64,000 bases of DNA from Roseomonas gilardii subsp. gilardii. Its GTDB lineage: Bacteria > Pseudomonadota > Alphaproteobacteria > Acetobacterales > Acetobacteraceae. The stretch covers positions 2,690,001 to 2,754,000 of the forward strand of contig NZ_CP095554.1 in the NCBI RefSeq assembly GCF_023078375.1. The letters are read 5' to 3'. The translations under genes were made by a program, and so were the position numbers. The notes below the pieces were generated by a model that had not been told where the DNA came from, did no database searches, and saw only the letters and a list, made by a program, of their open reading frames with translations. Of this stretch, positions 2,209 through 21,425 are shown one piece after another (position 1 is the first letter of the stretch; each line of letters opens with the position of its first letter).

Positions 2209-3003
2209 TCAGACCCGGAACTTGTAGTCCTTGCCCGGCTTCCGCTCGACATCCGGCGGAAAGCTCGCGCGCTTGTCCGCGAAATACTGCGCGCAATGGT
2301 CGCCGTCCGAGAGCAGGTTGTACGTCAGGTACAGGATCCGCCTCGCCGCATCCGTCATGTTCGCTTCCGAGGCGTGAGGGGCGTAGCTGTCGAAGAACAG
2401 CACGTCACCCGGCTCCGTCGGCACGGCAATAAGCTTGAATTTCGCCATCTGCTCGGTGCTCAACGGCTTCCATTCATCGCCGATCAATCCGGCCAGACGC
2501 GGCGCATCGGTCATCTGCAGGCAACCATTCTCTTCCGTGGCACGATCGATGCAGACCAGCGCCGTGACGAAGATCGGCGCATAGACGGACCAGCCGGCCT
2601 GCTGATCCTGATGCGGCTCGAAGCCTGCGCCGCCGGGCATCTTGAAGTTGATCTTGTCCTTGAAGAGCGTCACGGGTCCGCCCATCAGCTGCGCCACGGC
2701 CGCTTCCAGCCGGCTGTCGCGAACGAGATCCTTGAAGCCCTGATGAAAGGGGCAGAAGTTCTCGATGCGCTGGATCACACGCTCGCCGCTGCGCAGCAGG
2801 CTGTCCTCGCGATAGACCATGTGGCGCCCTGGCACCTCAGGAGCGGCCACCAGCTCATCTGTCCAGCGCGAGATCGCCCGCGCTTCCTCCGGACTGTAGA
2901 AGCCGCGCGCCGCGACCCATCCGGTCCTCGCGTAATGCGCCACGTCATCAGCGGAGAGGGGGGCTGCCTTTGTCGGGACGGAAAGCTTCAGAGTCTCGTT
3001 CAT
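2209..3003 (-). CDS. PhyH-family Fe(II)/2-oxoglutarate dioxygenase, possibly acting on AEP
   Basis: 264-residue soluble protein of the phytanoyl-CoA dioxygenase superfamily. The iron triad is visible: an HxD motif in PHQDQQAGW, and a distal His in FFDSYAPHASEAN; an Arg following (ARRILYLTYN) suits 2-oxoglutarate binding. The ATG at 3003 overlaps the TGA of the upstream nucleotidyltransferase (ATGA), so the two are translationally coupled. The same superfamily includes PhnY and related enzymes that hydroxylate C1 of 2-aminoethylphosphonate. Next to a PEP mutase operon, the best guess is modification of AEP or an AEP-lipid headgroup, but the substrate is not shown by sequence. A quinohemoprotein- or ectoine-type PhyH role cannot be excluded. 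Confidence 0.85.
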   Translation of the reverse strand: MNETLKLSVPTKAAPLSADDVAHYARTGWVAARGFYSPEEARAISRWTDELVAAPEVPGRHMVYREDSLLRSGERVIQRIENFCPFHQGFKDLVRDSRLEAAVAQLMGGPVTLFKDKINFKMPGGAGFEPHQDQQAGWSVYAPIFVTALVCIDRATEENGCLQMTDAPRLAGLIGDEWKPLSTEQMAKFKLIAVPTEPGDVLFFDSYAPHASEANMTDAARRILYLTYNLLSDGDHCAQYFADKRASFPPDVERKPGKDYKFRV

Positions 3004-3779
3004 GCCGGGCTCGCAACCTGAAGATGTGGAAGGATGACGTTCTCCGCACGGAGAACGTCCTCGGGAAAGTCGATCTCGGTCCAGGGCAGGTCGCTGATAT
3101 CCACGGCCTGGAAACGGGCCGGCTCGGCCAGGATCAGGTCGCGGATCGCCTCCTCGTATTCGACCTTCTTTTCGCCGCGCTGGACATAATCCTCGCACCG
3201 CGCCGCCAGAAGCCCCGCCATCTCTGGCGAGAAGCGGAAGAAGCCCACAGATTCGCCATGCCAGTCATGCATACGCTCCGGCCTCTTCCGGAAATCCACG
3301 ATCAGCCCATCCCGGAAACAGATCTTCACCGGTTCGTCCCCCGGCTCGATTTCCAGGTCCACCAGCAGGAGATTCTCGCCCGGCGCATGCAGGAGCCGGC
3401 CCAGCATGGCAGGATCGTAGAGAACATCGCCGTCCATCAGGAGCACCGGCCCACCCCACCGCAGCGTGTCCGCCTGCACGGCCAGTGACACGAGGCTACC
3501 CTGGCGGAAATCCGGGTTCTCCACGAAATGCACGCGATCCTGCCAGCCAAGACGCTCGACCTCTGCCCGGATCAGTTCTCCGTGATAGCCGATGGTGATG
3601 GCCACCTGGCGGATGCCATGCGCCTCCAGCGCGGCGAGGTGCCGGGCCAGGAGCGTGTGGCCGCCGAATTCCAGCAGGATCTTGGGCCTGTCATCGGAAC
3701 GGCCCAGGCGCTGTCCGACGCCAGCGGCCAGGATGATCGCGACCGCCTCACATTGCGGCACGGCAAGATATGACGACAA
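3000..3779 (-). CDS. Nucleotidyltransferase (GT-A fold), probable phosphonate cytidylyltransferase
   Basis: 259 residues, single nucleotidyltransferase domain. The N-terminal signature is intact: IILAAGVGQRL followed by RPKILLEFGG. The metal-binding LLMDGDVLYD is present around residue 120, and a second acidic site lies in WTEIDFPEDV near the C terminus. This is the LicC/PntC-like class that activates phosphocholine, sugars-1-phosphate or AEP as nucleotide derivatives. Divergent from the PEP mutase gene with 85 bases between them, and coupled to the downstream dioxygenase. In this setting CTP:AEP cytidylyltransferase (giving CMP-AEP) is the likely role; a sugar nucleotidyltransferase role is the alternative. 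Confidence 0.82.
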   Translation of the reverse strand: MSSYLAVPQCEAVAIILAAGVGQRLGRSDDRPKILLEFGGHTLLARHLAALEAHGIRQVAITIGYHGELIRAEVERLGWQDRVHFVENPDFRQGSLVSLAVQADTLRWGGPVLLMDGDVLYDPAMLGRLLHAPGENLLLVDLEIEPGDEPVKICFRDGLIVDFRKRPERMHDWHGESVGFFRFSPEMAGLLAARCEDYVQRGEKKVEYEEAIRDLILAEPARFQAVDISDLPWTEIDFPEDVLRAENVILPHLQVASPA

Positions 3780-3864
3780 ATCAAGGTTTCCGTTTCTGGC
3801 TTCCGGCCCATTGAACGATAAGGATGACAGTTCGATGTAGGCAAGACCGGCCGACGGTGTCCTC

Positions 3865-5562
3865 GTGCACCTGTCCCGGTTGTTGGGGAACCAAGCTTTG
3901 AGAAGTGATGTGGATCAGCTCGCCGCGCCGCGCCCGGACCAGTCGCGGCGGAAGGAGAGCCGCTTTGCCGCTCTGCGCCGGGAAATCACCTCGCCGACCC
4001 TTTCCTTCCTGATGGAGGCTCATGACGGCCTCTCCGCGAAGATCGTGGAAGAGGCGGGCTTCCGTGGTGTCTGGGCCTCCGGACTCACGACCTCCGCCGC
4101 GCTGGGCCTGCGTGACAGCAACGAGGCATCCTGGACCCAGGTGCTGGACGTGCTGGAATACATGTCCGATGCGACGACGCTGCCGATCCTGGTGGATGGC
4201 GATACGGGCCACGGCAACTTCAACAATGTCCGCCGCTTCGTGCGCAAGCTCTGCGAACGTGGCATTGCTGGCGTGTGCATCGAGGACAAGCTCTTCCCAA
4301 AGACCAACTCCTTCATCGGGGAGGCGCAGCCGCTCGCCGACATCGATGAGTTCTGCGGCCGCATCAAGGCCGGCAAGGACAGCCAGACGGATGATGACTT
4401 TGTCCTTGTCGCGCGTGTCGAGGCGCTGATCTCCGGTCACAGCATGGAGGAGGCGCTGCACCGGGCCGAGCGCTATCACGCGGCTGGCGCCGACGCGATC
4501 CTGATCCACTCCAAGAAGTCGAAGGCCGACGAGATCTTCACCTTCGCGGAACGCTGGGGCCATCGCTGCCCGCTCGTGATCGTGCCGACGATGTACTATG
4601 CGACGCCGACGGATCTGTTCCGCCAGGCGGGCATTTCCACCATCATCTGGGCCAACCACCTGCTGCGCGCCTCGATCACGGCGATGCGCGAGACGGCGGC
4701 GCGCATCCACGAGGATGAGTCGCTGATGCGCGTGGAAGGCAGCGTCGCCTCGGTGAAGGACATCTTCCGCCTTGCCGGCAATGCCGAGCTGGAGGAGGCC
4801 GAGAAGCGCTACCTCCCGGCCCGCGCCGCGGCAGGGGCGGTGGTCCTGGCCGCTTCCGCCGGCGAACTTGGCGGCCTCACCGCGGACCAGCCGAAATGCA
4901 TGGTCGATGTGCGCGGCCAGTCGCTGCTGCAGCGCCTGGTCGGCACGCTGCGCGAGAGTGGTGTCCGCGACGTGTCGGTGGTGCGTGGCTACCGCAAGGA
5001 AGCGGTCGCCATGTCCGGCGTGCGGATGATCGACAACGACCGGTACGCGGAAACGGGCGAGATCTGGTCGCTGGCCCAGGCCCGCGAGGCGATCAAGGGC
5101 GAGACGGTGATCGCCTATGGCGATGTGCTGTTCCGTCGCTACATCCTGGACAGCCTGCTCTCCTCCTCCGCCGACATTGTCGTGGCGGTGGATGCGCTGG
5201 ACAAGACGCAGGACGGCACCCGCCCGAACAAGCGCGATGGTGTGGTGGCCGACAAGCGCTTCTCCGGCGACTATCTCGACGACGCGCCGGCGCATCTCGT
5301 CTCCATGACGCATGGCGGCTCGGCCTCCGAGGAAAGCTGCGGCGAATGGATCGGCCTTGCCCGCTTCAGCGCCCGCGGGGCCCTGTGGCTGCAGGAGGAA
5401 CTCGACGCCATGGCGGCCGAGGGTCTATTGGAGGGCGGTGACATGCCGCTGCTGCTGACGCGCCTCGCCGCGAAGCATCCGGTGCGGGTGAAGTACTTCA
5501 CTGGGCACTGGCTCGACGTGGACACGCTGACCGACCTCGCCGAGGCCCGAAAATTCACCTGA
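3865..5562 (+). CDS. pepM: Phosphoenolpyruvate mutase fused to a nucleotidyltransferase domain
   Basis: Converts PEP to phosphonopyruvate, the C-P bond forming step of phosphonate synthesis. Residues about 40-315 are an isocitrate-lyase-type barrel with the PEP mutase signature [10 protein letters not shown] at 140-149 and the strongly conserved [18 protein letters not shown] region near 50-66. Residues about 321-565 are a second domain, nucleotidyltransferase-like: [16 protein letters not shown] and HWLDVD match its metal and substrate motifs. The nucleotide-binding loop reads [12 protein letters not shown] and lacks the conserved Arg and one Gly of LAAGxGxRL, so activity of this domain is doubtful. 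The start is uncertain: GTG 3865 gives the longest form, but GTG 3910 has a better upstream gagaag. First gene of the plus-strand AEP operon, four bases before ppd. Confidence 0.95.
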
Positions 5563-5566
5563 GACC

Positions 5567-6727
5567 ATGATCACAGCATTGGAGTTTCTCCACGAAGCCG
5601 GCAAAGCCGGCTTCGACTTCTATACGGGCGTGCCCTGTTCCTTCCTGACCCCGCTGATCAACGGCGTCCTGTCCGCGCCGGGCCTCGCCTATGTCGGCGC
5701 AGCCAGCGAGGGGGAGGCCGTGGCCATCGCCGCCGGCGCCTGGCTGGCGGGGCGGCGGACCGTGGTGATGTGCCAGAATTCGGGGCTGGGGAATGCGGTG
5801 AACCCGCTGACCTCGTTGAGCCACCCCTTCCGCATCCCGACCCTCTTCGTCACCACCTGGCGGGGAGAGCCGGGCATTCCGGACGAGCCGCAACACGAGC
5901 TGATGGGGGAGATCACCCAGGACCTGATCGCCCTGATGCGGCTGGAACAGGCGCCTTTCCCGGCCGGGCCCGCAGCCCTGGCACCGGCCCTGGCGCAGGC
6001 CGTCACCCGGATGGAGGCGACCGGGCTTCCCTATGCCTTCGTCATGCGCAAGGGCGACGTGGCCGACAGTCCGCTGGACCAGGCGTCGCGGCCCCTGCCG
6101 CCGCCAGGCCGGCGTTCGGATCACCCGGGGGAGGGCGAGCGCCCCACCCGTGCCGCCGTGCTGGAGCGCTTCCTCTCCATCGTGCCGGAGGAGGCGGCGG
6201 TGGTCGCCACCACCGGCAAATGCGGGCGGGAACTCTTCACCCTCGCGGACCGGGAGCAGCATCTCTATCAGGTCGGCTCCATGGGCGGGGCCAGTGGCAT
6301 GGGTCTGGGCATCGCCCTGAACAGCTCGCGCCTCGTGGTGGTGCTGGATGGTGACGGGGCGGCGCTGATGAAGCTCGGCAGCCTCGCCACGATCGGCGCC
6401 CATGCGCCGGAGCGGCTGGTCCATGTGATCCTGGACAATGGCGTGCACGACTCGACGGGCGGGCAGGCGACGGTCTCCGCCTCGGTGGATTTCGCCGGTG
6501 TCGCGCTGGCCTGCGGCTATCGCACCGCCGCCTCCTGCGCTTCCCTGGGCGGGTTCGAGGCCGCGTTCCGGCAGGCTCTGGCCACGGGCGGCCCGGCGCT
6601 GATCCATGCCCGGATCGCCCCCGGCTCCATGGCGAAGCTCGGCCGCCCGACCGTCAAGCCGCCGGAGGTGGCGCGGCGTTTCCGGGCCTTCCTCGCCCGG
6701 CCGCTCGCGGAGGCGGCTTCCGCGTGA
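5567..6727 (+). CDS. ppd: Phosphonopyruvate decarboxylase
   Basis: 386-residue thiamine diphosphate enzyme that decarboxylates phosphonopyruvate to phosphonoacetaldehyde, pulling the unfavourable PEP mutase reaction forward. The N-terminal half has the pyrimidine-binding domain with the catalytic-type Glu region (AASEGEAVAIAAG) and CQNSGLGNAVNPLTSL, typical of Ppd. The C-terminal half has the ThDP/Mg motif starting VLDGDGAALMKLG and ending LDNGVHDSTG. Length is normal for the family. It follows pepM by four bases, and its TGA overlaps the GTG of the next gene. Confidence 0.96.
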   Translation: MITALEFLHEAGKAGFDFYTGVPCSFLTPLINGVLSAPGLAYVGAASEGEAVAIAAGAWLAGRRTVVMCQNSGLGNAVNPLTSLSHPFRIPTLFVTTWRGEPGIPDEPQHELMGEITQDLIALMRLEQAPFPAGPAALAPALAQAVTRMEATGLPYAFVMRKGDVADSPLDQASRPLPPPGRRSDHPGEGERPTRAAVLERFLSIVPEEAAVVATTGKCGRELFTLADREQHLYQVGSMGGASGMGLGIALNSSRLVVVLDGDGAALMKLGSLATIGAHAPERLVHVILDNGVHDSTGGQATVSASVDFAGVALACGYRTAASCASLGGFEAAFRQALATGGPALIHARIAPGSMAKLGRPTVKPPEVARRFRAFLARPLAEAASA

Positions 6728-7725
6728 TCTGGTCCACCGCCCTCAGCCTCGTCATCGGCCTCGCCGCCTTCCTCACGCTGATCCTCACCAGCGACCCGGC
6801 CCAGATCCTGGCGCTGCTGCTCCAGACGGGCTGGGGCCTGCTGCTGGTGGCGGCGCTGCATGTGCCGCAGATCTTCTGCTCCGCCCTGGGCTGGCAGCCG
6901 CTGATCGAGGACCCGCGCAAGCCGGGGCTGCTGGCGCTCACCAAGCTGCGCTGGGTGCGGGAATCCGCCAATGCCATGCTGCCCTTCGTGCAGGTGGCAG
7001 GAGAGCTGGCGCGGGCGCAGCTCCTGCTCCGCCGCGGGGTCGGACGCATCCGCGTGGTGGCCAGCATCGCCGTCGATCTCGCCACGGAGATGGCCTCGCA
7101 GATCGTCTTCTCCCTGATGGGCGTGGCCGTGCTGCTGCTGATCCCGCATGAGGGCGGCGACACGGTGACGCACTGGCTGATCGCGGCCACGCTGCTCGGC
7201 GGTGGGCTGACTGTGGCCTTCATGCTGGCGCAGCGCTTCGGCCTGTTCCGGCTGGTTGAGAAGATGCTGCCGCGCTTCGCCGCCCGGGCGGGCTGGGCCT
7301 CGCTGGGGGACATGACCGGGCTGAACGAGGCCGTGCTGCGCCTCTACCGCCAGCCGTCGCATCTCTGGCGCAGCGGCGCGGGGCACCTGGCCTCCTGGCT
7401 GATCGGCGTCGTGGAAACCTGGGCGGCGATGTGGCTGCTGGGCATCGAGGCCGGCTTCGCCGAGGCCATGGTGATCGAGAGCCTGGGCCAGGCGGTGCGC
7501 AGCGCCGGCTTCTTCATCCCTGGCGCGCTGGGGGTGCAGGAGGGCGGCTATGTCCTGCTTTGCGGCCTGTTCGGCATTCCGGCCGACCAGGCCCTGGCCC
7601 TGGCGCTGATCCGGCGGCTGCGCGACATGGCCCTGGGCCTGCCGGGGCTGATCGTCTGGCGCTGGGATGCCTCGGGGCCGGGCTTCGGCGGCCCCGCTTT
7701 GGCCGGTGGAATGGGAAAGCACTGA
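6724..7725 (+). CDS. hpnL: HpnL-like integral membrane protein (LPG synthase TM-region family)
   Basis: 333 residues with about eight hydrophobic segments, belonging to the UPF0104/lysylphosphatidylglycerol-synthase transmembrane family. The C-terminal region GFFIPGALGVQEGGYVLL followed by a final RLRDMALGLPGLIVW block matches the hopanoid-associated HpnL subgroup. Function of HpnL is not settled; a flippase or lipid-export role is usually proposed. The GTG at 6724 overlaps the ppd stop codon, and the AEP transaminase begins two bases after its stop, so it is an integral part of the phosphonate operon. This suggests a role in moving a phosphonate-headed or hopanoid lipid across the inner membrane. 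The family is certain; the exact HpnL assignment less so. Confidence 0.8.
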   Translation: MIWSTALSLVIGLAAFLTLILTSDPAQILALLLQTGWGLLLVAALHVPQIFCSALGWQPLIEDPRKPGLLALTKLRWVRESANAMLPFVQVAGELARAQLLLRRGVGRIRVVASIAVDLATEMASQIVFSLMGVAVLLLIPHEGGDTVTHWLIAATLLGGGLTVAFMLAQRFGLFRLVEKMLPRFAARAGWASLGDMTGLNEAVLRLYRQPSHLWRSGAGHLASWLIGVVETWAAMWLLGIEAGFAEAMVIESLGQAVRSAGFFIPGALGVQEGGYVLLCGLFGIPADQALALALIRRLRDMALGLPGLIVWRWDASGPGFGGPALAGGMGKH

Positions 7726-7726
7726 G

Positions 7727-8818
7727 ATGACGGCCGAACCGACCCCCATCCTCCTGACGCCGGGCCCGCTGACCACGCGGATCGAGACGCGGCGGGCCAT
7801 GCTGCGCGACTGGGGCTCGCGCGATCCGGGCTTCATCGCCCTGACCGCGGAGCTGCGGCAGCGGCTGCTGGATGTCGCGAAGGGGCAGGGGAGCCATGTG
7901 GCGGTGCCCCTCCAGGGCTCCGGCACCTTCATCGTCGAGGCCGCGATCGCCACGCTGATCGCGCCGGAGGACAAGCTGCTGGTCCTCTGCAACGGCGCCT
8001 ATGGCGAGCGCATGGTGACCATCGCCCGCCGCCTGGGGCGGCAGGTGGAGGCGCTGCGCTGGCCGGAGGACCGGGTGGCGGAGCCCGCCCGCGTCGCCGG
8101 GGCGCTGCGGGCCGACCCCGCCATCACCCATGTCGCCCTGGTCCATTGCGAGACGACCACCGGCATCCTGAACCCTCTGCCGGAGATCGCCGCCGCCGTG
8201 GCGGAGGCGGGGCGGCACCTGCTGCTGGATGCGATGAGCAGCTTCGGCGCCCTGCCGATCGACCTTTCCGCCCAGCCGGTGGCGGCGGTGCTGGCCTCCT
8301 CGAACAAATGCCTGGAGGGCGTGCCGGGGATCGGTTTCGCCCTGGTGCGCGAGGAGGTCCTGGCGGCGCGCAAGGGCAACAGCCCTTCCGTCAGCCTTGA
8401 CCTGGAGGCGCAGTGGCGCGGTTTCGAGGGCAATGGCCAGTGGCGCTTCACCCCGCCGGTGCAGGTGGTGGCCGCGCTGGTCGAGGCGCTGCGCCTGCTG
8501 GAGGCCGAGGGCGGGCCGGAGGCGCGCCGGGCGCGCTACGGCAACAATCTCCGCACCCTGCTGGCGGGGATGCGGCGCCTGGGCTTCGAACTCTACCTCG
8601 ATGAGGCAGTGCAGGCGCCCATCATCGCCACCTTCCGCTCACCGGAGGGATTCGACTTCCGGCGCTTCTACGACGCGCTGGCGGAGCGGGGCTTCCTGAT
8701 CTACCCGGGCAAGCTGACCCAGGCGGAGAGCTTCCGCATCGGCTGCATCGGCGCGCTGGGGCAGGGGGAGTTCGAGCGGCTCCTCATCGCCGTGGAAGAG
8801 GTCCGGGCCTCCGCCTGA
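7727..8818 (+). CDS. phnW: 2-aminoethylphosphonate--pyruvate transaminase
   Basis: 363-residue fold-type I PLP enzyme interconverting phosphonoacetaldehyde plus alanine and AEP plus pyruvate. The start MTAEPTPILLTPGPLTTR is typical of PhnW. The PLP lysine is Lys194 in SSNKCLEGVPG, with Asp168 of LLLDAMSSFG as cofactor partner. No phosphonoacetaldehyde hydrolase (phnX) is present, while pepM and ppd are directly upstream, so it acts here in the biosynthetic direction making AEP. Last gene of the operon, two bases after hpnL. Confidence 0.95.
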   Translation: MTAEPTPILLTPGPLTTRIETRRAMLRDWGSRDPGFIALTAELRQRLLDVAKGQGSHVAVPLQGSGTFIVEAAIATLIAPEDKLLVLCNGAYGERMVTIARRLGRQVEALRWPEDRVAEPARVAGALRADPAITHVALVHCETTTGILNPLPEIAAAVAEAGRHLLLDAMSSFGALPIDLSAQPVAAVLASSNKCLEGVPGIGFALVREEVLAARKGNSPSVSLDLEAQWRGFEGNGQWRFTPPVQVVAALVEALRLLEAEGGPEARRARYGNNLRTLLAGMRRLGFELYLDEAVQAPIIATFRSPEGFDFRRFYDALAERGFLIYPGKLTQAESFRIGCIGALGQGEFERLLIAVEEVRASA

Positions 8819-8827
8819 AGCGGAGGC
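8807..8827. terminator. Hairpin at the phnW stop codon, candidate terminator
   Basis: gcctccgc (8807-8814) pairs perfectly with gcggaggc (8820-8827) around a five-base loop that contains the phnW stop. It separates two convergent operons. No T-run follows, so the assignment rests on structure and place. Confidence 0.5.
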
Positions 8828-8835
8828 ACCGGGGG

Positions 8836-9326
8836 TTATTGCAGGGCACCCCAGCGCGCCGTCGCGGGCTCCGCATTGGCCCATTTCCAGCCCGTTGCCT
8901 GCCGGCAGATCATGCCCAGGAAGGTCTGCGTCTCTCCTTCCACGGTCAGTGCCAGCTCACGGCAATGCGCCAGGGGGAGTCGATCTCCCGCACCACCTCG
9001 ACCTGTCCCTTGGCGTCGCTATAGCCGAAGGGCAGGTCGTGCTCGATCTTCCAGTCCACCCGCGTGCCGGGCGGCGCCGCTCCGGCCGCCGCGCTGATCG
9101 CGTCCTGCTCGCCCTGGTGCAGCTTGCGGGTCACGTATTTCACGGTCGCGTTGGTACCGGCCTCGACCCCCACCGCCACGGCATAGCCCACCGCCGGGTT
9201 CGTGGTCGCCGCCCCGGTCGCGATGCCGGCGATGCCGCCGACGACACCACCCGCGGAACTGCATCCCGCGAGCATCCCAGCGGACAGCAGAGCCAGCCAG
9301 CCCCCGGCTCTCCCTCCAGCCCTCAC
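8836..9326 (-). pseudogene. Lipoprotein paralogue with a -1 frameshift
   Basis: Small secreted lipoprotein similar along its length to the protein of the upstream gene. GTG 9326 overlaps the upstream stop (GTGA). A signal peptide ends in a clear lipobox MLAGC (Cys22), followed by a Gly/Ala-rich segment and a domain containing VVREID. The frame breaks near 8973-8977, a run of five G on the plus strand. Adding one C on the coding strand restores a C terminus ending ANAEPATARWGALQ, which parallels SAEPATERWGALQ of the neighbour. Uncorrected, the ORF ends at 8946. No function is known. Either a sequencing error or a recent frameshift. Confidence 0.7.
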
Positions 9327-9856
9327 TGCAGCGCGCCCCAGCGCTCGGTGGCGGGTTCGGCGCTGGCCCAGGACCAGCCCTCCTTGTTGCGGCAGATCGC
9401 GGCGGTGAAGAATTCCTGCTTCACGCCCTGCTTCGCCTCCTCCTCCACGGAGAAGATGATCTCGCGGCATTGCAGGTCCTTGCCGCCGATTTCGCGGACC
9501 ACGGTGACCTTGCCGTGCTGGTCGGGGAGGATGGCGGTGTCGTGGACGACCTTCCAGCTCGCCACCTGGCCCAGGGGCACAGGGCCGGCGGCATCGGCGA
9601 TGGCCTGCTGCTCGGTGTGCTGGGCCTTGCGGAAGGCGTATTGCAGCCCGGCCTGGGCGACCGCGCGGACGCCGAAGCCGATGCCGGTCGCCACGGCGCC
9701 GTTATCCGTCACCGCCGTCGCCAGGGCAGCGCCGCCGATACCGGCGACATCCGCCGTGCCTTCCTGCAGCAGGGACTGGCAGGCGCCGAGACCCAGCAGG
9801 GGCGTGAGAAGAAGCAGCCGGACAAGCCGGGGGTGGGAGCGACCGGAGGCTTCCAT
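9323..9856 (-). CDS. Putative lipoprotein of unknown function
   Basis: 177 residues with an N-terminal signal peptide (LVRLLLLTPLLGLGAC) and lipobox Cys26, so likely anchored to a membrane in the periplasm. The mature part has a glycine-rich hydrophobic stretch (GIGGAALATAVTDNGAVATG) reminiscent of glycine-zipper proteins, and a C-terminal domain with paired Cys (LQCREI and AAICRNKEGW). It is the intact member of a tandem pair with the next gene. It lies 44 bases after the CDP-alcohol phosphotransferase gene and is probably in the same transcript. I do not recognise a characterised family. Confidence 0.75.
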   Translation of the reverse strand: MEASGRSHPRLVRLLLLTPLLGLGACQSLLQEGTADVAGIGGAALATAVTDNGAVATGIGFGVRAVAQAGLQYAFRKAQHTEQQAIADAAGPVPLGQVASWKVVHDTAILPDQHGKVTVVREIGGKDLQCREIIFSVEEEAKQGVKQEFFTAAICRNKEGWSWASAEPATERWGALQ

Positions 9857-9900
9857 GCCGTGCCTGGGTATCCTTGGAGAAAGAAGAAGGTATGTGCTGG

Positions 9901-10494
9901 TCAGGAGGCGATCCGGTTCCGCCGCCGCCCGGTCAGCCCCAGCCAGAGCGCGGCCAGCGGCGTGATGACCGCGGCGGCCCAGAGCATCGGCACGGAGAGG
10001 CCGAGCCAGACCAGGACGGGCACGAAGACCATGGCATCGTCGGGATCGACGGTCAGGCCCGGCGCGATCTGGTAGCCGCGCAGCTCGCCCAGCTTCAGCA
10101 CGTTGAGCTGCCAGAACAGCGCCCCGATGCCGAGGCCGGCGACCACGCCCAGGAGTGGTCCGGTGAGGTTCAGGATGGGGATCAGCCCCACGCCGATGCC
10201 GATGAAGGCGATGATGTTCGAGGAGCAGTCGCTGATCAGGTCGTAGCGGTGCCCCATCGCGCTGAACTGCCGGGTCTGCCGCGCCAGTTCGCCATCCGCC
10301 CGGTCGAGCAGCATGGAGAACAGGAAGATCCCGCCTCCGATGGCGGGCCAGGGGGCCGGGCCGGCGAAGGCCAGGGCGGCGGCGATGCCGCCCAGCAGGC
10401 GTAGGGTGGTGATCTGATTGGGAGTCACGCCGGTCGGCGCAACCCGCCGCACCGCCGGCCGGACGATGCGATGAATGATGGTGTCGTGACTCAC
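9901..10494 (-). CDS. CDP-alcohol phosphatidyltransferase family protein
   Basis: 197-residue inner-membrane enzyme of the class that swaps CMP for an alcohol in phospholipid synthesis. The complete active-site signature DxxDGxxAR-x8-GxxxDxxxD is present: LDRADGELAR, eight residues, then GHRYDLISD. Several membrane segments surround it. GTG 10494 is the start, ten bases after the upstream diiron gene. With AEP synthesis and two nucleotidyltransferase domains beside it, I infer transfer of an aminoethylphosphonate group from CMP-AEP to diacylglycerol or another lipid alcohol. A standard role such as phosphatidylglycerophosphate, phosphatidylinositol-like or cardiolipin synthesis is the alternative. 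Confidence 0.88.
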   Translation of the reverse strand: MSHDTIIHRIVRPAVRRVAPTGVTPNQITTLRLLGGIAAALAFAGPAPWPAIGGGIFLFSMLLDRADGELARQTRQFSAMGHRYDLISDCSSNIIAFIGIGVGLIPILNLTGPLLGVVAGLGIGALFWQLNVLKLGELRGYQIAPGLTVDPDDAMVFVPVLVWLGLSVPMLWAAAVITPLAALWLGLTGRRRNRIAS

Positions 10495-10504
10495 GGGGAG
10501 GGTC

Positions 10505-11500
10505 TCAGGCGGCCTGGGCCGCTTCCCTGGGCTTCGGATCGCGCATGAAGCGGCGCGCGATCCGGATGAAGAAGGGCACCGTCACCGGCCGCAGCAGGCG
10601 CGGATCGTAGCCGCCCAGCCGCCGGTCGTTCTCGGCGAGGCAGATGTCGATCAGCTCCGCCGCGCTCATGCTGACGCCGATGGACTGGGAATTGGCGGTG
10701 AAGTTCGTGTCCTTCGAGGCGCCGCTCATGTCGCGCGCCATCACCAGGCGGTCCCAGACCAGCACCGCCCAGACGGCGGCGGTCTTGGCCAGGAAATACG
10801 GCTTGCGCCACCAGGGCTGCTGCTTGCGCTTCCAGGCCGCCCAGTTGGCGAAGAAGAGGATGTGCCGGCTTTCCTCCTGGATCACCGGTTCGAAGGTCTC
10901 CACCAGATCGGGCGGGAAGAAGCCGGAGCGCCGCGCCGCCTCGAACAGGCCGAAGGCGAAGAAGCTGTCGATGCACTCGCTGTAGCCCGTGCGCATCCAG
11001 CCCCATTCGGTGTCCTTGAAGCCGGTGTATTCCGGCTCCGGCTCCAGCACCACGCCATAGGCCTCGACAAGGTTGGACAGCACCACCTTGTGCCGCGCCT
11101 CCTCGTTGCCATCCATGACCATCGCTTCCTTGAGCAGCGGGTCCTCGATGGTGGCGGCGTAGTCGAGCACGCGCAGCGAGGCCCGGCCCTCGGTCTGCAC
11201 GGCGATGTCCCAGATCGGCAGGCCGGTGAGGCGGGCATGCGCCTCCGGGTCCAGCTTCGGCCAGTCCAGCACGCGGGGCTTGTAGGGGTTGTGCGTCTCC
11301 AGCAGCATCCGTGCGAACATCACCATGTGGTCATGGCTGCCGATGCGGATGCGGCCTGGCTTGTCGAAGGTCCAGTACCGTGCCGTCCTGTCGGCGGCGG
11401 CCACGATCATGCTGTTGAGCGGGACATCCCATTCGGCCGGGTGTTCGGCATTGCCATCGAACGCTCCGGGCGGCACGGGTCTTGACGACATGGACAACAC
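10505..11500 (-). CDS. Ferritin-like diiron protein of unknown function
   Basis: 331 residues. Two ExxRH-type motifs (GNEEARHKVV and IQEESRHILFFANW) spaced about 85 residues apart, with an intervening acidic helix (YSECIDSFFAFGLFEA), are what a carboxylate-bridged diiron four-helix bundle looks like. Such proteins include desaturases, hydroxylases and oxidases. Start is GTG 11500 or ATG 11491. It is first in the minus-strand unit with the CDP-alcohol phosphotransferase and the lipoproteins, and divergent from hpnN with about 150 bases between them that should hold both promoters. A lipid-modifying oxygenase is a reasonable guess, not shown. Confidence 0.75.
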   Translation of the reverse strand: MLSMSSRPVPPGAFDGNAEHPAEWDVPLNSMIVAAADRTARYWTFDKPGRIRIGSHDHMVMFARMLLETHNPYKPRVLDWPKLDPEAHARLTGLPIWDIAVQTEGRASLRVLDYAATIEDPLLKEAMVMDGNEEARHKVVLSNLVEAYGVVLEPEPEYTGFKDTEWGWMRTGYSECIDSFFAFGLFEAARRSGFFPPDLVETFEPVIQEESRHILFFANWAAWKRKQQPWWRKPYFLAKTAAVWAVLVWDRLVMARDMSGASKDTNFTANSQSIGVSMSAAELIDICLAENDRRLGGYDPRLLRPVTVPFFIRIARRFMRDPKPREAAQAA

Positions 11501-11653: not shown

Positions 11654-14339
11654 ATGCCAGAGGACCCGGACCGCATGGTTCATGCCCCCCACGACCTGCC
11701 CGCCGCCACGCCGGCCTCTCTCACGGGGCGGATCGTCGGCGCCTGCTGCCGCCATGCCTGGTGGGTCGTGCTGCTGGCCCTGTTGCTGACCGGGGCCGCC
11801 GGCCTGTACAGCACCCGGCACTTCGCCATGACGACCGACACGGCGGAGCTGATCTCCCCGGACCTGCCCTACCGGCAGCGGGAGATCGCGCTCAACGCCG
11901 CCTTCCCGCAATACCAGGACATGACCGTGGTGGTGCTGGACGGGGCCACGCCGGAACTGGCGGAACTCGGCGCGGCGCGGCTCTATGACCGGCTGAAAGG
12001 GAGGGAGGACCTGTTCCGCAGCGTCCGCCGCCCCGATGGCGGCCCCTTCTTCGCCCGCTACGGCCTGATGCTGCTGCCGCTGGCGGAGGTGCAGGCCAAT
12101 ACCGACCAGCTCATCCAGGCGCAGCCCTTCCTCGGGCCGCTGGCCGCCGATCCCAGCCTGCGCGGGGTGATGGGGGCGCTGGATACGGTGCTGCTCGGCG
12201 TGGAGCGCGGGCAGGCGACGCTGGAGGACATCCGCCGCCCGCTGGAGGCCCTGGCCACCAGCTTCGATGCCGTGGCAGCGGGCAGGCCGGGCTTCTTCTC
12301 CTGGCGCAACCTCTTCTCCGACCAGCCGGCCGGCGTGCGGGAGACCCGCAAGTTCATCCTGGTCCAGGCGAAGCTCGACTACGGCTCGCTGGAGCCCGGC
12401 GCCCGGGCCAGCACCGCGATCCGCGAGGCGGCGCGCGAGCTGGGGCTGGACGCGGCGCGGGGCGTGACCGTGCGCCTGACGGGCAGCGTGCCGCTTTCGG
12501 ATGAGGAATTCGCCACCCTGGCGGAAGGTGCCTCGCTGATGGGCATCGCCATGGTCGTCTGCCTCGTCGCCATGGTCTGGCTCGCCGTGCGCTCCTGGCG
12601 CTTCACCCTGGCGATCCTGCTCAGCACCATCCTCGGCCTAGTGCTGACGGCCGGGGCGGGGCTGCTGGTGATCGGGCGCTTCAACCTGATCTCGGTGGCC
12701 TTCATCCCGCTCTTCGTCGGGCTGGGGGTGGATTTCGGCATCCAGGTTTCCGTCCGCGCCCGGGCGGAGCGCCTGCGCCACCCGGCGCTGGGCGATGCGC
12801 TGGTGGCGGCGGGAAACGCCGTGGGCGGCTCGCTGGCCCTGGCGGCGGCGGCCATCGCGGCGGGGTTCTTCGCTTTCCTGCCCACCAGCTATATCGGCGT
12901 CTCGGAGCTCGGGGCCATCGCCGGGGTGGGGATGGTGGTGGCCTTCGTGCTCAGCATCACGCTGCTGCCGGCGCTCCTGACCCTGCTGCGCCCGGCGGGC
13001 GAGGCGAGGGAGGTCGGCTTCGCTGCCCTGGCCCCGCTCGAGACCTGGCTGCACCGCCGCCACCGGGGTGATCGCCGCCGCGGTGCTGCTGGTCGTCGGA
13101 TCGGTGGCGCTGATGCCGCGGCTGACCTTCGACTTCAACCCGTTGCACCTGCGCAGCGAGAAGGTGGAATCGGTCTCGACGATCGAGGACCTGATGAAGG
13201 ACCCCGACCGCTCCCCCTATACGATCGACGTGCTGACCCCCTCGCTGGCCGAGGCCGATGCGCTGGCGAAGCGCATCGCGCCGCTGCCGGAGGTGGCCCA
13301 GGTCGTCACCCTGGACAGCTTCGTGCCGGGCCAGCAGGAGGAGAAGCTGGCCGCCATCCATGACGCCGCCGACCTCCTTTCCCTGACGCTGGACCCGGTG
13401 AGCGTCCGCCCGCCGCCCACCGACGCCGAGCTGGTGGAGAGCTTCCGCGCCACGGGTGCCGGGCTGCGCCGCGCGGCGGGGGAGGCGAAGGATGCCAAAG
13501 CCGGGGCTGGGGCCGAGGCCGCGCGGAGCCTCGCCACGGCGCTGGAGCATCTGGTGGCCGCCTCGCCGGATGTGCGGGCGCGGGCCTCGGAGGCGGTGAT
13601 CACCCCGCTGCGCGTGCTGCTCGCCCAGATCCGCGACATGCTCTCGGCCGGGCCGGTGACGGTGGAGACGCTGCCGCCGGAGCTGCGCGCCGACTGGGTC
13701 GCAGCCGACGGGCAGGCACGGGTGCAGGTCTTCCCCCAGGGCGGCACCAGCAGCAACGAGGCGCTGCGCCGCTTCGCCGCGGCGGTGCAGGCGGTGGCGC
13801 CCCAGGCCACCGGCGCCCCCATCTCGCTGCAGGAGGCGGGGGACAGCATCGTCCATGCTTTCCTCCAGGCCGGGGTGCTCTCGGCCATCGTCATCACCCT
13901 GCTCCTGGCCCTGGTGCTGCGGCGGGTGCGGGACGTGCTGCTGACGATTCTGCCGGTGATCGCCAGCGGGCTGCTGACCCTGGGCGCCTGCGTGCTGCTG
14001 AGGGAGCCGCTGAACTTCGCCAACATCATCGCTCTGCCGCTGCTCTTCGGCATCGGCGTGGCCTTCAACATCTACTACGTGATGGCCTGGCGGCAGGGGG
14101 AGGCGGCGCTGCTGTCCAGCAGCCTGACCCGGGCCATCGTCTTCAGCGCCCTGACCACCGCCACGGGCTTCGGCAGCCTCTGGCTCTCCACCCATCCGGG
14201 CACGGCGAGCATGGGGCGGCTGCTGATGATCTCGCTCGCCTGCGTGCTGCTGGTGATCCTGCTGCTGCAGCCGGCGCTGCTGGCGAAGCCGGCAGCCGGG
14301 AAGCGTGGCCCTGGGAAGCCTGGCCCCGGGAGGCGCTGA
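11654..14339 (+). pseudogene. hpnN: Hopanoid RND transporter HpnN, frame broken near 13065
   Basis: RND/MMPL-type exporter that moves hopanoids to the outer membrane. About 890 residues if the frame is repaired. The first half (from 11654) has one N-terminal membrane helix, a periplasmic loop and a five-helix block including FIPLFVGLGVDFGIQ. The second half (13068-14339) repeats this with ALPLLFGIGVAFNIYYVM. The two frames join at a gggg run, 13065-13068: removing one G gives a continuous WLHRRHR-VIAAAVLL. Whether it is a real mutation or a base-calling error is open. Plus-strand gene facing the minus-strand hpnM. Confidence 0.88.
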
Positions 14340-14355
14340 CCCGCCCTCAGGCGGG
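14340..14355. terminator. Hairpin between convergent hpnN and hpnM
   Basis: cccgcc and ggcggg around a four-base ctca loop, spanning the hpnN stop and the hpnM stop. A short GC-rich stem that could stop transcription from both sides; no T-run. Confidence 0.45.
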
Positions 14356-14970
14356 CTTCATCAGCCGGTCGCTGAGCTCGTTCAGCCGCTGCACCAGGGT
14401 CGCCGCGCCCTGGCGGACAGAGGCCGCGAATTCCGACCGGCGGATGCTCAGCTCGCTGATCGAATCGTGCAGCACGTCGGTGATGCGCCAGGCCCCGTCC
14501 GCCTGATGCATGCGGTAGGTGAGGTCCACCGGCTTGCCGGCGGGGTTCAGCAGCCGGCTCACCACGATCTTCTCGTCGCCCCGGTTCTCGACCCGCTGGG
14601 TCTCGAAGCTCTGGCCGCTGTAGCCGTCGAAATTGCTGGCGTAGCTGGCGATGGTCATCCGGGTGAAGGCCTGGATGACCGCTTGCTGCTCCTGCGGGGT
14701 GAAGGAGGGCCAGCGGGCCCCCACGGCGAAGCGGGACATGGCCGGGATGTCGAAGACCGCCTGCACCACCGGGGCGAGCTGCTGGTAGCGGCCCTGGATG
14801 CCCAGCGCCTGTGCCCGCTTCATCACGTCGAGCAACGCGGCGTGCAGCCGCTCGATCTGCGCCGCCGCGGGGTCGGCAGGCTGGGCCATGGCGGGCCGGT
14901 GCATGGCGACCGGGGCGAGGGCGGAGAGCAGGACGGCCGCAAGGAGCCCCTGCCGGCGGGAGATGGGCAT
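14347..14970 (-). CDS. hpnM: Hopanoid-associated MlaC/Ttg2D-like protein HpnM
   Basis: 207-residue periplasmic protein of the MlaC (toluene-tolerance Ttg2D) family, the lipid-carrier type usually paired with HpnN. The ATG at 14970 was chosen because it gives a signal peptide (MPISRRQGLLAAVLL, cleavage after AMA) with a Tat-like SRRQGLL; longer upstream reading has no signal. Family features: FTPQEQQAVIQAFTRMTIASYA and a C-terminal beta region with LTYRMHQADGAWRITDV. It converges on hpnN rather than following it, unlike the usual same-strand arrangement. Confidence 0.86.
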   Translation of the reverse strand: MPISRRQGLLAAVLLSALAPVAMHRPAMAQPADPAAAQIERLHAALLDVMKRAQALGIQGRYQQLAPVVQAVFDIPAMSRFAVGARWPSFTPQEQQAVIQAFTRMTIASYASNFDGYSGQSFETQRVENRGDEKIVVSRLLNPAGKPVDLTYRMHQADGAWRITDVLHDSISELSIRRSEFAASVRQGAATLVQRLNELSDRLMKPA

Positions 14971-15463
14971 GCCTGTGTTTCCCCGGCGGGCGGTGCCTTG
15001 GCAAGTCCGGCCAGGAAGCGAGCGCGGCGGCTCTGCACACAGCTTCGTGGGCAAACCCATGTTCCGGCAGTCGGGCGGTCCGGACTGTGGCTCGTGGGCC
15101 ACAATCCCGACGGAAGAATGTGCTCACCGGGTTGTTGCCCTGCATCAACAGCCCCAATCAGGAAAGGATGAACCCGACTGGCACGGTCTGGAACCCGGGA
15201 ACTGCCCTCGCTGCCTGGAAAGACGGTCTGCCCGGGGAAGCCCCGGCAAGCCTTGGTGCGGAGGGCAGGGCCGGTGTGCGGCCTGTGCGGGCGTGAAGTC
15301 CGGCCATGCGTGCTAGGAGCGCGGGCGAGGCTCGCAGAATCCCGGCCGGGCACCGGACAGCGCGTCGGGACGATGGAACCCTGGCTGCCCGTCGTGGCAG
15401 CCGTGAGAGACAGCCCTGGCTGCCCCACCGGGCAGCCGCAGAGAGACAGCAAGGAGCGCGGCT
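14971..15463. other. hpnM-hpnH divergent intergenic region
   Basis: Nearly 500 bases without a convincing gene; ORFs here have no recognisable content. It must hold the promoters for hpnM (minus) and hpnH (plus). The only clear structure is the pair of repeated hairpins next to hpnH, listed separately. I saw no known riboswitch signature. Confidence 0.5.
15379..15449 (+). repeat. Two tandem hairpin units in the hpnH leader
   Basis: Two successive units of 35 and 36 bases (15379-15413 and 15414-15449). Each starts ccctggctgcc, folds into a ggctgcc/ggcagcc stem-loop (15383-15402 and 15418-15437; the second has an 8-bp stem with a four-base loop) and ends gagagacag. The second unit ends one base before the aaggag ribosome-binding site of hpnH. 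In the mRNA this gives twin stem-loops just before the start, a plausible control element. Function is inferred only from position and repetition. Confidence 0.6.
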
Positions 15464-16639
<1,176 letters not shown>

Positions 16640-17270
16640 GGTGCGGAACGCCCTCTCCGCCTCGATCCCGGTGCGGACCAGCGCCGGGATCTGAAGCGGG
16701 TCCCGCAGCAGCGAGCCGAGCACGGCGAGTGGCGCCATGCGCCCGTCCGGCCGCATGCCCACCATGGCGGCCGGGGGCAGGTTGCGCCGGGCGGAATCGG
16801 AGATCACGCGCGCCACGGCGAAGGGCAGCCCGTACCGCTGTGCCACCCGGCCCGCGATATGGGATTCCATGTCCACCGCCACGGCGCCGGAGGCCTTGCG
16901 CAGATTGGCCTTCCAGCGCGCTCCGGTGACCATTTCGTCCGACCCCGCCACCAGCCCCGGCATGGCGCCGGGCAGGTAGTGCAGCAGCCATTCCGCCCAT
17001 TCCGGATGGGTGGGGATGCGGCTGTACCCGTCCAGCACCGCCCCGGCCACCACCCAGTCGCCCGGTTCCAGCCCCGGGGCGAGGGCGCCGGCCAGGCCGG
17101 TGCTCAGGATGCCGCGCACCTGAGGCGCCAGGCGCTCCAGCTCCGCCTCCAGCCGCGCGGCATCGCCGCCGCCGGTGACGGCGAGAATGCCGGGACCGGA
17201 CACGATCCGGGCTTCCCGCCGCAAGCCCGTCGCGGCGAGGAGTATCGGGGGGATCGGGGTCACGGGTGGC

Positions 17271-19286
17271 TCAGAGGCCCCAGGAAGGCTGGGTCGCGTT
17301 GCCCTTGCGCAGGTTGCGGTAGCGCGCCACGGCCCAGAGCGGGAAGAAGCGCGCATAGCCGTGGTAGCGGAGGTAGAAGACGCGCGGGAAGCCGCCGCCC
17401 GTATAGGCTTCCTGGTTCCACAGGCCGTTCTCGTCCTGCTGCGCCTGGAGATAGGCGACGCCGCGCGCCACGGCGGGATCATCCACATAGCCCGCCGCCA
17501 TCAGTCCGAGCAGCGCCCAGGCGGTTTGGCAGGGATTGGACGGCGCCTTCTCATAGCCGCGGTAGTCGAGCTTGTAGCTCTCGCAATCCTCGCCCCAGCC
17601 ACCATCCTCGTTCTGGATGCGCCGCAGCCATTCCGCGCCGCGCCGCACGGTCGGATGCTCCGACGTCCAGCCCGCGGCGTTCAGCCCGCAAAGGGCCGAC
17701 CAGGTGCCGTAGATGTAGTTGACGCCCCAGCGGCCGAACCAGCTTCCATCGGCTTCCTGCTCGCGCACGATATAGTCCAGCGCGGCGCGCATCCGGGGGT
17801 TCGCCTCGGTCTCGCCGAGCTGCGCCAGCATCGCCACGCAGCGCGCGCTGACATCCACCGTCGGCGGGTCGAGCAGGGCGCCGTGATCGGCGAAGGGGAT
17901 GTTGTTCAGGTAGTGGTAGCTGTTGTCCGCATCGAAGGCGCCCCAGCCGCCGTTGCGGCTCTGCAGCCCGATCGTCCATTCCGCGCCGCGCGCGATGGAT
18001 TCGTCGAAATTCTCGCCCGGCTCCAGCCTGCGGCGGGCGCGGTCCATCGCCATCACCACCACGGCGGTGTCGTCGAGATCCGGGTAATGCGCGTTGCGGT
18101 ACTGGAAGGCCCAGCCGCCGGGGCGCACATCGGGGCGGATCTCGGCCCAGTCGCCGCGCACCTCCAGCTCCTGCAAGGGCTTCAGCCAGGCCAGGCCCTT
18201 CTCCACCGCCTCGCCATGCTCCAGCTCGCCTGCCTCCATCAGCGCGTGGCAGGTCAGCGCCGTGTCCCAGACGGGGGAGACGCAAGGCTGGCAATAGGCC
18301 TCGTCCTCGCCGACGATCAGCAGCTTCTCCACCGAGGCGCGGGCGATGGCGCGATCCGGATGATCCTCCGGATAGCCGAGCACGTCGTACATCATCACGC
18401 TGTTGGCCATGGCCGGGTAGATCGCGCCCAGCCCGTCCTCGCCATTCAGCCGCTCGCGCACGAAATCCACGCACCAGTCGATGGCGCGCTGGCGCGAGCC
18501 CTTGGGCCAGAGCGGCTCGGCGGCCTTGAGGCCGAGATCGAGGCTGTTGAAGAACAGCGCCCAGCCCGGCTTGCGATGCGTCTTCGCCCGTCGCAGCCGC
18601 AGGCGGTCGCGGGGCAGGAAGAGCTCGGGGATATGGACGCCGCGCGCGTTGCGGGCACGCGCCTTCTTGGCCTGCAATACCAGTAGCGGCACGATCACCG
18701 TGCGGGCCCAATAGGCCATCTTGCTCAGATGAATCGGGAACCAGCGCGGCAGCAGCACCATCTCCACCGGCATGGAGGGCACGCGGCTCCAGGAAATCTC
18801 GCCATACATGGCAAGGAGGATGCGCGTGAAGACATTGGCGGCGCCCGCTCCGCCACGGGCCAGCAGCGCCTCGCGCGCCCGCACCATATGCGGCGCGTCG
18901 GGGCTGTCGCCGATCATCTTCAGGCAGAAATACGCCTTCACCGTCGCGCTGATATCGAAGGCGCCGCCATGGAAGAGCGGCCAGCCGCCATGATCGCCCT
19001 GGATGCGGCGCAGGTAGTTGCCGATGCGCCGCTCCAGCTCCAGGTCCTCGGGCTCGCCCAGATGGTGACGCAGCAGGACGTACTCGGCGGGGATGGTGGC
19101 GTCGGCCTCCAGCTCGAAGACCCAGTGCCCGTCCTCGCGCTGCAGGCTCTTCAGCGCCTGCGCCGCGCTCTTCACCATGGCATCGAGCGCCGCGGGACTC
19201 ACGGTCCCGGGGATTCCGGATGTCATGGCAGGGGAAAGATCGTCGGGGGTGTTGTCCTGCGGTACACCAGCCGGTGCGTCGAACAT
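17271..19286 (-). CDS. shc: Squalene-hopene cyclase
   Basis: 671-residue monotopic membrane enzyme that cyclises squalene to hopene/hopanol. The catalytic DxDD acid motif is at residues 403-406 (YPDLDDTAVV). Several QW repeats are visible, for example QREDGHW, QGDHGGW, QSRNGGWGAFD, QNEDGGWGE and QQDENGLW. Length is typical of the family. It is twelve bases after hpnE and seven before hpnG. Also named hpnF. No sign of damage. Confidence 0.98.
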   Translation of the reverse strand: MFDAPAGVPQDNTPDDLSPAMTSGIPGTVSPAALDAMVKSAAQALKSLQREDGHWVFELEADATIPAEYVLLRHHLGEPEDLELERRIGNYLRRIQGDHGGWPLFHGGAFDISATVKAYFCLKMIGDSPDAPHMVRAREALLARGGAGAANVFTRILLAMYGEISWSRVPSMPVEMVLLPRWFPIHLSKMAYWARTVIVPLLVLQAKKARARNARGVHIPELFLPRDRLRLRRAKTHRKPGWALFFNSLDLGLKAAEPLWPKGSRQRAIDWCVDFVRERLNGEDGLGAIYPAMANSVMMYDVLGYPEDHPDRAIARASVEKLLIVGEDEAYCQPCVSPVWDTALTCHALMEAGELEHGEAVEKGLAWLKPLQELEVRGDWAEIRPDVRPGGWAFQYRNAHYPDLDDTAVVVMAMDRARRRLEPGENFDESIARGAEWTIGLQSRNGGWGAFDADNSYHYLNNIPFADHGALLDPPTVDVSARCVAMLAQLGETEANPRMRAALDYIVREQEADGSWFGRWGVNYIYGTWSALCGLNAAGWTSEHPTVRRGAEWLRRIQNEDGGWGEDCESYKLDYRGYEKAPSNPCQTAWALLGLMAAGYVDDPAVARGVAYLQAQQDENGLWNQEAYTGGGFPRVFYLRYHGYARFFPLWAVARYRNLRKGNATQPSWGL

Positions 19287-21421: not shown

Positions 21422-21425
21422 CTTG

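Follow-up and report, generated by a model that had tools for sequence, protein, structure and literature searches.

We examined a 64,000-nucleotide stretch of the Roseomonas gilardii subsp. gilardii genome (NZ_CP095554.1, positions 2,690,001–2,754,000; hereafter the window) that carries genes for the synthesis of 2-aminoethylphosphonate (AEP), including the phosphoenolpyruvate (PEP) mutase PepM, together with two nucleotidyltransferase domains, one of them fused to PepM, and a cytidine diphosphate (CDP)-alcohol phosphotransferase. Since the genes from 11.65 to 22.5 kb of the window are hopanoid genes, this phosphonate set sits at the end of a hopanoid cluster. Judged by the genes present, their undamaged motifs and their recurrent joint occurrence, a predicted route from AEP to its cytidine monophosphate (CMP) derivative, CMP-AEP, and by CDP-alcohol-type transfer onto a lipid alcohol is well supported. 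That the locus makes a phosphonate-headed hopanoid, with AEP or hydroxy-AEP on a hopanoid polyol, we consider an even call. An AEP phosphonolipid pathway had been proposed in a preliminary description of this DNA; its AEP, CMP-AEP and lipid-alcohol steps agree with the gene content, motifs and co-occurrence found here, but the link to hopanoids had been missed.

In the proposed pathway, PepM would convert PEP to phosphonopyruvate, Ppd would decarboxylate it, and PhnW would aminate the resulting aldehyde to AEP, which an enzyme of the PhyH family may hydroxylate; this last step would be optional because many carriers lack PhyH. CMP-AEP would then be formed by one of the two nucleotidyltransferase domains or by both, and the CDP-alcohol phosphotransferase would pass the phosphonate from CMP to a hydroxyl of bacteriohopanepolyol, which squalene-hopene cyclase (SHC), HpnH and HpnG, encoded next door, would help to make. 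Handling of the product in the envelope would fall to HpnL, HpnM and HpnN. Bacteriohopanepolyol is put forward as the acceptor because of the genomic dependence on hopanoid genes. The sequences support the enzyme families, the intact motifs and the conserved hopanoid linkage; we infer that CMP-AEP is formed, that its phosphonate is transferred, that a hopanoid accepts it, that hydroxylation takes place, and what HpnL does. Phosphonohopanoids would be a new lipid class, in which a dedicated CDP-alcohol phosphotransferase joins AEP or 1-hydroxy-AEP through its phosphonate to bacteriohopanepolyol and an equally dedicated HpnL handles the product; the producers would be Roseomonas relatives, some Burkholderiaceae and many Rhodospirillales for which there are only metagenome-assembled genomes (MAGs). 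The case for and against such a class seems to us about equally balanced.

Co-occurrence of the phosphonate and hopanoid genes

In an even draw of 337 alphaproteobacterial genomes, with PepM matches taken at E ≤ 1e-100 and HpnH at scores over its cut-off, HpnH was present in all 38 genomes with PepM and in 54 of the 299 others (Fisher p 4e-25). The 38 genomes span 19 labelled families. Their PepM matches cover both domains in 33 cases; the rest are in two pieces (G484), partial (G426, G457 and G157) or limited to the PepM part (G462). Eight weaker matches, confined to the PepM part, were accompanied by HpnH in three genomes. The 54 HpnH genomes without this PepM are those lacking a match at E ≤ 1e-100, and three of them (G206, G216 and G456) have a weaker, unfused PepM-like match. 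The rule also holds in families where hopanoids are uncommon, HpnH being found in 13 of 119 genomes in the family of the Sphingomonas carrier and 27 of 199 in that of the Caulobacter carrier. A search for the gene set within Acetobacteraceae had been suggested earlier; run across Alphaproteobacteria, the census found PepM in 2 of the 5 genomes of family f1, this one included. PepM and HpnH share a contig in 16 of the 38 genomes, lying 6–14 kb apart in 13 of them, in nine families, and far apart in three.

The surroundings of PepM were also compared by clustering the open frames of 80 PepM-fusion loci, the best 80 of 451 found, with those of the window, gene names being unused. Recurrent neighbours on the phosphonate side were Ppd, the separate nucleotidyltransferase, the phosphotransferase, PhnW and PhyH, and on the hopanoid side HpnL, HpnM, HpnH, HpnN, SHC and HpnG, with IspH, HpnA, HpnD, HpnE, HpnB and HpnC assigned by eye. 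For IspH, HpnA and HpnB, the profiles behind these names match the ispH, hpnA and glycosyltransferase annotations on the Roseomonas marmotae plasmid described below. A diiron protein, an MlaA-like lipoprotein and rarer neighbours also recurred. At least one of SHC, HpnH, HpnG, HpnN and HpnM was present in 44 of the 80 loci, many of which are cut by contig ends, and hopanoid genes lie on both flanks of the phosphonate genes in at least six Rhodospirillales MAG loci (L058, L061, L062, L077, L079 and L082). These gene counts use score thresholds of our own setting, below which matches exist (phosphotransferase, 37 bits in L170; PhyH, 37 bits in L198). Of the genomes behind 33 of the 80 loci, 32 were examined, and HpnH scored over its cut-off in 31 of these, the remaining MAG having an HpnH fragment at a contig edge.

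In a module test, 37 PepM-centred regions, which overlap the 80 loci in some genomes and are likewise often cut by contig ends, were compared with the HpnH regions of the 54 genomes that have HpnH without this PepM. The phosphotransferase was found in 18/37 PepM regions versus 0/54 hpn regions, PhyH in 10/37 versus 0/54, and the separate nucleotidyltransferase in 21/37 versus 1/54, the single exception (L172, genome G378) holding a PepM fragment. HpnL (13/37 versus 12/54), HpnM, HpnN and HpnA occur in both sets. These counts indicate that the phosphotransferase, the nucleotidyltransferase and PhyH go with the phosphonate genes.

HpnL lies between Ppd and PhnW in the operon type of Roseomonas, Sphingomonas and Caulobacter. 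One clade among the HpnL proteins of hopanoid clusters takes in 29 of the 31 HpnL rows located near Ppd or PhnW (support 86, not strong), and many MAG-cluster HpnL sequences form a different one. A Sphingomonas genome (G013) has one HpnL in the operon and a second ~13 kb from its HpnH, and HpnL scored over its cut-off in all 23 carrier genomes tested. The function of HpnL is described as not established in passages of PMC12583986.

The phosphonate-hopanoid cassette moves and recurs, as a plasmid and a betaproteobacterium attest. On the 430-kb Roseomonas marmotae plasmid p1318-3 (NZ_CP061094.1, locus L215) it lies near two IS701 transposase genes, with a hopanoid part (hpnA, glycosyltransferase, hpnC, D, E, shc, hopanoid-associated phosphorylase, hpnH and ispH) and a phosphonate part (phosphotransferase, PhnW, HpnL, Ppd, PepM and nucleotidyltransferase), plus a polyprenyl synthetase and an MMPL transporter; no PhyH was found in this stretch. 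Among plasmid-collection records, of which one of nine from Mycetohabitans and one of four from Burkholderia were examined, the betaproteobacterial plasmid pBRH01 of Mycetohabitans rhizoxinica carries the phosphotransferase, a 2-oxoglutarate (2OG)-Fe(II) oxygenase gene unmatched by the PhyH profile, HpnL, nucleotidyltransferase, PepM, Ppd and aminotransferase; the genes beyond these include dxs, an MMPL transporter, ispH, hpnH, hpnA and shc. The operon with HpnL is also kept in single records of Burkholderia cenocepacia and Cupriavidus.

Predicted activities of the phosphonate enzymes

The window PepM scores above the TIGR02320 cut-off and its translation contains the EDKxxxxxNS motif of PEP mutases, which is kept in 115 of 117 related rows. 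Ppd (TIGR03297) and PhnW (TIGR02326 and TIGR03301) belong to their families by score, and the PepM, Ppd and PhnW families together yield AEP. The NTP_transf_3 domain fused to PepM is nearest to LicC (1jyk, E 1.5e-10) and conserves a lysine and aspartates of the fold (113 rows). For the separate nucleotidyltransferase, the best PDB sequence match is 6pd1 (nucleotidyl transferase/aminotransferase class V, E 3.3e-14), which we take to be the Treponema denticola PntC protein. Its AAGxGxRL...PK motif and conserved aspartates are kept at 97–100% over 81 rows. By its nearest relative and intact catalytic motif, this protein is PntC-like and a candidate AEP cytidylyltransferase. PntC of T. denticola is described in passages of PMC6697681.

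The phosphotransferase, for which a full DGxxAR active site had been noted earlier, contains the entire D-x2-D-G-x2-A-R-x8-G-x3-D-x3-D motif. The motif is invariant in 48 aligned relatives, which were selected for carrying it, and a further D-x-D-D near the C-terminal end is also invariant. The predicted structure is confident and nearest to AF2299 and phosphatidylinositol-phosphate synthases; thus, motif and fold place the protein in PF01066. With NCBIfam models for known substrate classes it stays below every cut-off (42 bits versus 350 at best). Pentatricopeptide chains in the PDB matched by the alignment profile were taken as spurious, with no stretch passing alone.

A second CDP-alcohol gene occurs in L058, L061, L077, L126, L127 and others, its product carrying the motif without the last aspartate (36 of 112 tree rows). 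A single branch of 39 rows (support 90) holds all 36, along with three intact ones, and the protein could be a pseudo-enzyme partner or an enzyme of altered chemistry. A third, distant clade of CDP-alcohol proteins has the motif intact (15 rows).

The open frame of the PhyH protein is over-long (2209–3198), with aligned relatives placing the start near 3003, and its presumed iron ligands H131, D133 and H210 are invariant in all 38 aligned rows. The nearest NCBIfam model is that of methylphosphonate hydroxylase (NF052437), which we rejected as an assignment because the score of 167.1 bits is far under the cut-off of 500; the protein is a distant relative and not a member. It could form hydroxy-AEP or act on the hopanoid side chain.

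Acceptor of the phosphonate and relation to known systems

Several observations weigh against a hopanoid acceptor. No product molecule is known for this gene set. The genomes compared share ancestry, so the p value of the census overstates independence; closeness of PepM and HpnH was not shown in 25 of the 38 genomes (22 with the genes on different contigs and 3 with them far apart), 19 of the 37 PepM regions show no phosphotransferase, contig ends cutting some, and some PepM genomes have neither linkage nor a phosphotransferase nearby. PhyH is present in only 32 of the 80 loci and 10 of the 37 regions. The Burkholderia and Cupriavidus records showed no scoring hopanoid gene within 18–20 kb, and on a Sinorhizobium medicae conjugative plasmid (L219, NZ_CP104150.1) a CDP-alcohol gene belongs to a phosphonate cluster in a stretch free of hopanoid genes. 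The latter cluster comprises unfused PepM, aminotransferase, cytidylyltransferase and a CDP-alcohol gene unmatched by the phosphotransferase profile, and is a separate phosphonate cluster type that serves as a contrast case. Among the solved close relatives of the phosphotransferase are enzymes with CDP-diacylglycerol as a substrate. The idea that the phosphonate replaces the cyclitol-ether head was rejected: the cyclitol-ether gene HpnJ (E ≤ 1e-60) is not excluded by the phosphonate cluster, being present in 10/38 PepM genomes versus 17/54 genomes with HpnH only (p 0.65) and, among the former, in 1 of the 13 closely linked versus 9 of the 25 others (p 0.12). A C-P lyase gene is also present in the genome.

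A further point comes from Muricoccus (Roseomonas) pecuniae DSM 25622, whose strain number is also that of PepM locus L028 and which when grown gave 0.1 mg/g hopanoid polyols as a single species, the lowest yield among species giving any, according to passages of a survey (PMC12583986, 2025). The whole-cell periodate method described there would still count a C-35-linked head if the vicinal hydroxyls were free; therefore, an abundant C-35-linked product with free diols was not made in that culture. Either the product was scarce, or its diols were blocked by attachment, or the acceptor is not a hopanoid. Given the points on product, linkage, HpnJ and C-P lyase, we hold the hopanoid acceptor at no better than a coin's toss and allow diacylglycerol a substantial minority share.

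Diacylglycerol is the main rival. CMP-AEP and diacylglycerol would give a phosphonate analogue of phosphatidylethanolamine, with HpnL, HpnM and HpnN as shared transport parts, and the production of this glycerolipid together with hopanoids would reflect a role of both in one outer-membrane state. We regard this as a tentative but serious alternative; it offers no evident reason for the restriction to HpnH genomes (38/38 versus 54/299), and the operon type of the window has its own HpnL clade. Transfer to lipid A, an envelope glycan or ceramide appears unlikely. AEP-bearing glycans are known (passages of PMC6697681), serine palmitoyltransferase is present in the genome of the window, and several clusters from Rhodospirillales MAGs contain two or three CDP-alcohol genes, so that more than one acceptor is possible; against this, no LicD or capsule genes were found among the recurrent neighbours named by eye, some small clusters being left unannotated. 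Ceramide as a general acceptor was rejected because serine palmitoyltransferase (NF047599) scored over its cut-off in 42 of the 337 genomes and in only three of the 38 with PepM, the genome of the window being one of the three.

The least credible reading, to which we assign very little weight, is a diffusible phosphonate or catabolic AEP use with accidental nearness to hopanoid genes. The C-P lyase gene phnJ lies elsewhere in the genome (G000:C1:932558-933373; 489 bits, cut-off 25), so the strain may degrade phosphonates too, and PhnW can act in catabolism. However, PepM and Ppd are synthetic families, no phnX match above the cut-off was found in the genome, and the linkage is repeated in nine alphaproteobacterial families, a plasmid and a betaproteobacterium. 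An earlier statement that no degradative gene is present is thus correct for the genes considered here and not for the genome as a whole.

Among known lipids, the hydroxy-AEP sphingolipids of Bacteriovorax stolpii come close, with a 1-hydroxy-AEP head on a ceramide backbone; by contrast, 35 of the 38 PepM genomes lack serine palmitoyltransferase over the cut-off. IPCT-DIPPS (4mnd), in which a cytidylyltransferase feeds a CDP-alcohol transferase, is a working model for the window pair, although its substrate is inositol rather than AEP, and in both IPCT-DIPPS and AF2299 (4q7c) the activities reside on one polypeptide whereas the window has separate genes. The Pnt pathway (PMC6697681) resembles the window in its PepM-NTP fusions and CMP activation of AEP, but passages of that paper point to LicD/glycosyltransferase contexts, and "CDP-alcohol" and "hopanoid" are absent from its main text. 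The same gene set, with hpnL named, was reported as a pepM-ppd-AEPT-NTPT-CDP-APT-OG-Fe(II)-hpnL cluster in lichen Nostoc and Burkholderia and interpreted as phosphonolipid synthesis (PMC5987646, Fig. 7); the word "hopanoid" does not occur in its main text, whereas here the set lies among genes for hopanoid synthesis and occurs together with them. In the same genus, a link between hopene cyclase and PEP mutase was seen in several Roseomonas species, three of them named, and an undiscovered terpene-phosphonate was suggested (PMC8776678). That work used antiSMASH within one family, and its passages leave the phosphotransferase, HpnL and acceptor unnamed and contain no co-occurrence test.

A survey reported no obvious new candidate genes near hpn clusters beyond hpnA, B, L and M (passages of PMC12583986). 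We found no report of a phosphonate-bearing hopanoid molecule in literature listings, one of which was covered in part, nor did we find in print the strict co-occurrence, the linkage seen across nine families and in two classes, a definite testable structure, or the association of this HpnL and of the diiron protein with hopanoids in carriers as well as non-carriers. If a hopanoid is indeed the acceptor, a phosphorus head would be added to the hopanoids, a group for which the main text of PMC12583986 has no word starting with "phosphon", and HpnL would gain its first testable substrate. AEP, described as the most abundant phosphonate of the sea (abstract of PMC9381506), would moreover be linked to sterol-like lipids and the hopanoid fossil record.

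Gene map and neighbouring genes

The source genome comprises 4.62 Mb in two contigs and lies near Roseomonas mucosa, its PepM being 97% identical to that of R. mucosa ATCC BAA-692 (L004). Past the last part of an rRNA unit and a tRNA, the genes up to 11.5 kb follow in three blocks of alternating strand: PhyH and the nucleotidyltransferase (minus), PepM-NTP, Ppd, HpnL and PhnW (plus), and the phosphotransferase and diiron protein (minus).

Table 1. Positions in the window and supporting scores of the phosphonate and hopanoid genes
Feature	Position	Strand	Evidence
PhyH-family Fe(II)/2OG dioxygenase, candidate AEP hydroxylase or side-chain hydroxylase	2212..3003	-	PhyH 82.8 bits (cut-off 22)
PntC-like nucleotidyltransferase, candidate CTP:AEP cytidylyltransferase	3000..3779	-	NTP_transf_3 63.5 bits (cut-off 27)
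PEP mutase fused to second NTP_transf_3 domain, 565-aa frame	3865..5562	+	TIGR02320 388.8 bits (cut-off 319.6)
Ppd, phosphonopyruvate decarboxylase	5567..6727	+	TIGR03297 417.4 bits (cut-off 312.5)
HpnL, hopanoid-associated membrane protein in phosphonate operon	6724..7725	+	TIGR03476 290.5 bits (cut-off 195.7)
PhnW, AEP transaminase	7667..8818	+	TIGR03301 436.8 bits (cut-off 360.8); TIGR02326 432.7 bits (cut-off 400.8)
CDP-alcohol phosphotransferase, candidate phosphonate transferase to lipid alcohol	9901..10494	-	CDP-OH_P_transf (PF01066) 50.2 bits (cut-off 22)
Ferritin/R2-like diiron protein, hopanoid-associated	10505..11500	-	Ligand pattern and predicted fold
hpnN hopanoid transporter, two overlapping frames (frameshifted)	11654..14339	+	NF052374 574 and 534 bits on halves
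HpnM (MlaC-like)	14347..15102	-	TIGR03481 195.8 bits (cut-off 160.1)
HpnH, adenosyl-hopene transferase	15464..16639	+	TIGR03470 540.6 bits (cut-off 225)
HpnG, hopanoid-associated phosphorylase	16556..17488	-	TIGR03468 218.8 bits (cut-off 187.1)
SHC, squalene-hopene cyclase	17271..19286	-	TIGR01507 749 bits (cut-off 431)
HpnE	19299..21218	-	TIGR03467 395.9 bits (cut-off 283)
HpnD	20561..21466	-	TIGR03465 317.8 bits (cut-off 278.6)
HpnC	21426..22499	-	TIGR03464 281.1 bits (cut-off 250.5)

All genes named in the preliminary description between 2.2 and 11.5 kb are present, with Pfam and NCBIfam scores far above chance, and since the named families pass their cut-offs that gene list is right. Its flippase-like protein of the UPF0104 class is indeed a membrane protein, but belongs to the HpnL family and scores only 22 bits, under the cut-off, with TIGR00374. 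The description stops at 11.5 kb, but the array continues to ~22.5 kb through the hopanoid cluster. There, every NCBIfam cut-off is passed except by the split HpnN, and SHC, HpnH, HpnG and HpnC/D/E, the genes taken to define a hopanoid polyol cluster, all score above theirs.

The two halves of hpnN each score below the whole-protein NF052374 cut-off of 1100. The shift lies near 13.07 kb, and the relative L004 has a single intact long frame; the split may stem from faulty sequencing or reflect true damage to the hopanoid transporter. Between phnW and the phosphotransferase gene, at 8946–9856, are two short frames that overlap, one of them starting with what resembles a lipobox (LGAC); no family match and no tblastn match at 1e-5 in the 80 PepM loci, L004 included, were found for them.

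The diiron protein, which had been counted in the phosphonate set, is present but fits better on the hopanoid side. It has no Pfam or NCBIfam match and displays a diiron-type ligand pattern and a ferritin/R2-like predicted fold. It occurs in 15 of the 80 PepM loci and, among the 54 hpn regions that lack this PepM, in four (L200, L205, L208 and L213), adjacent to HpnL in three of the latter. Its presence in such regions ruled out a place in the phosphonate module; it goes rather with hopanoids and is a candidate hopanoid oxygenase.

Among the PepM loci, L017 is titled Mycobacterium sp. KBS0706 and has an operon whose PepM is 76–77% like that of the window, as in Inquilinus (L019); it is probably a mislabelled alphaproteobacterium.

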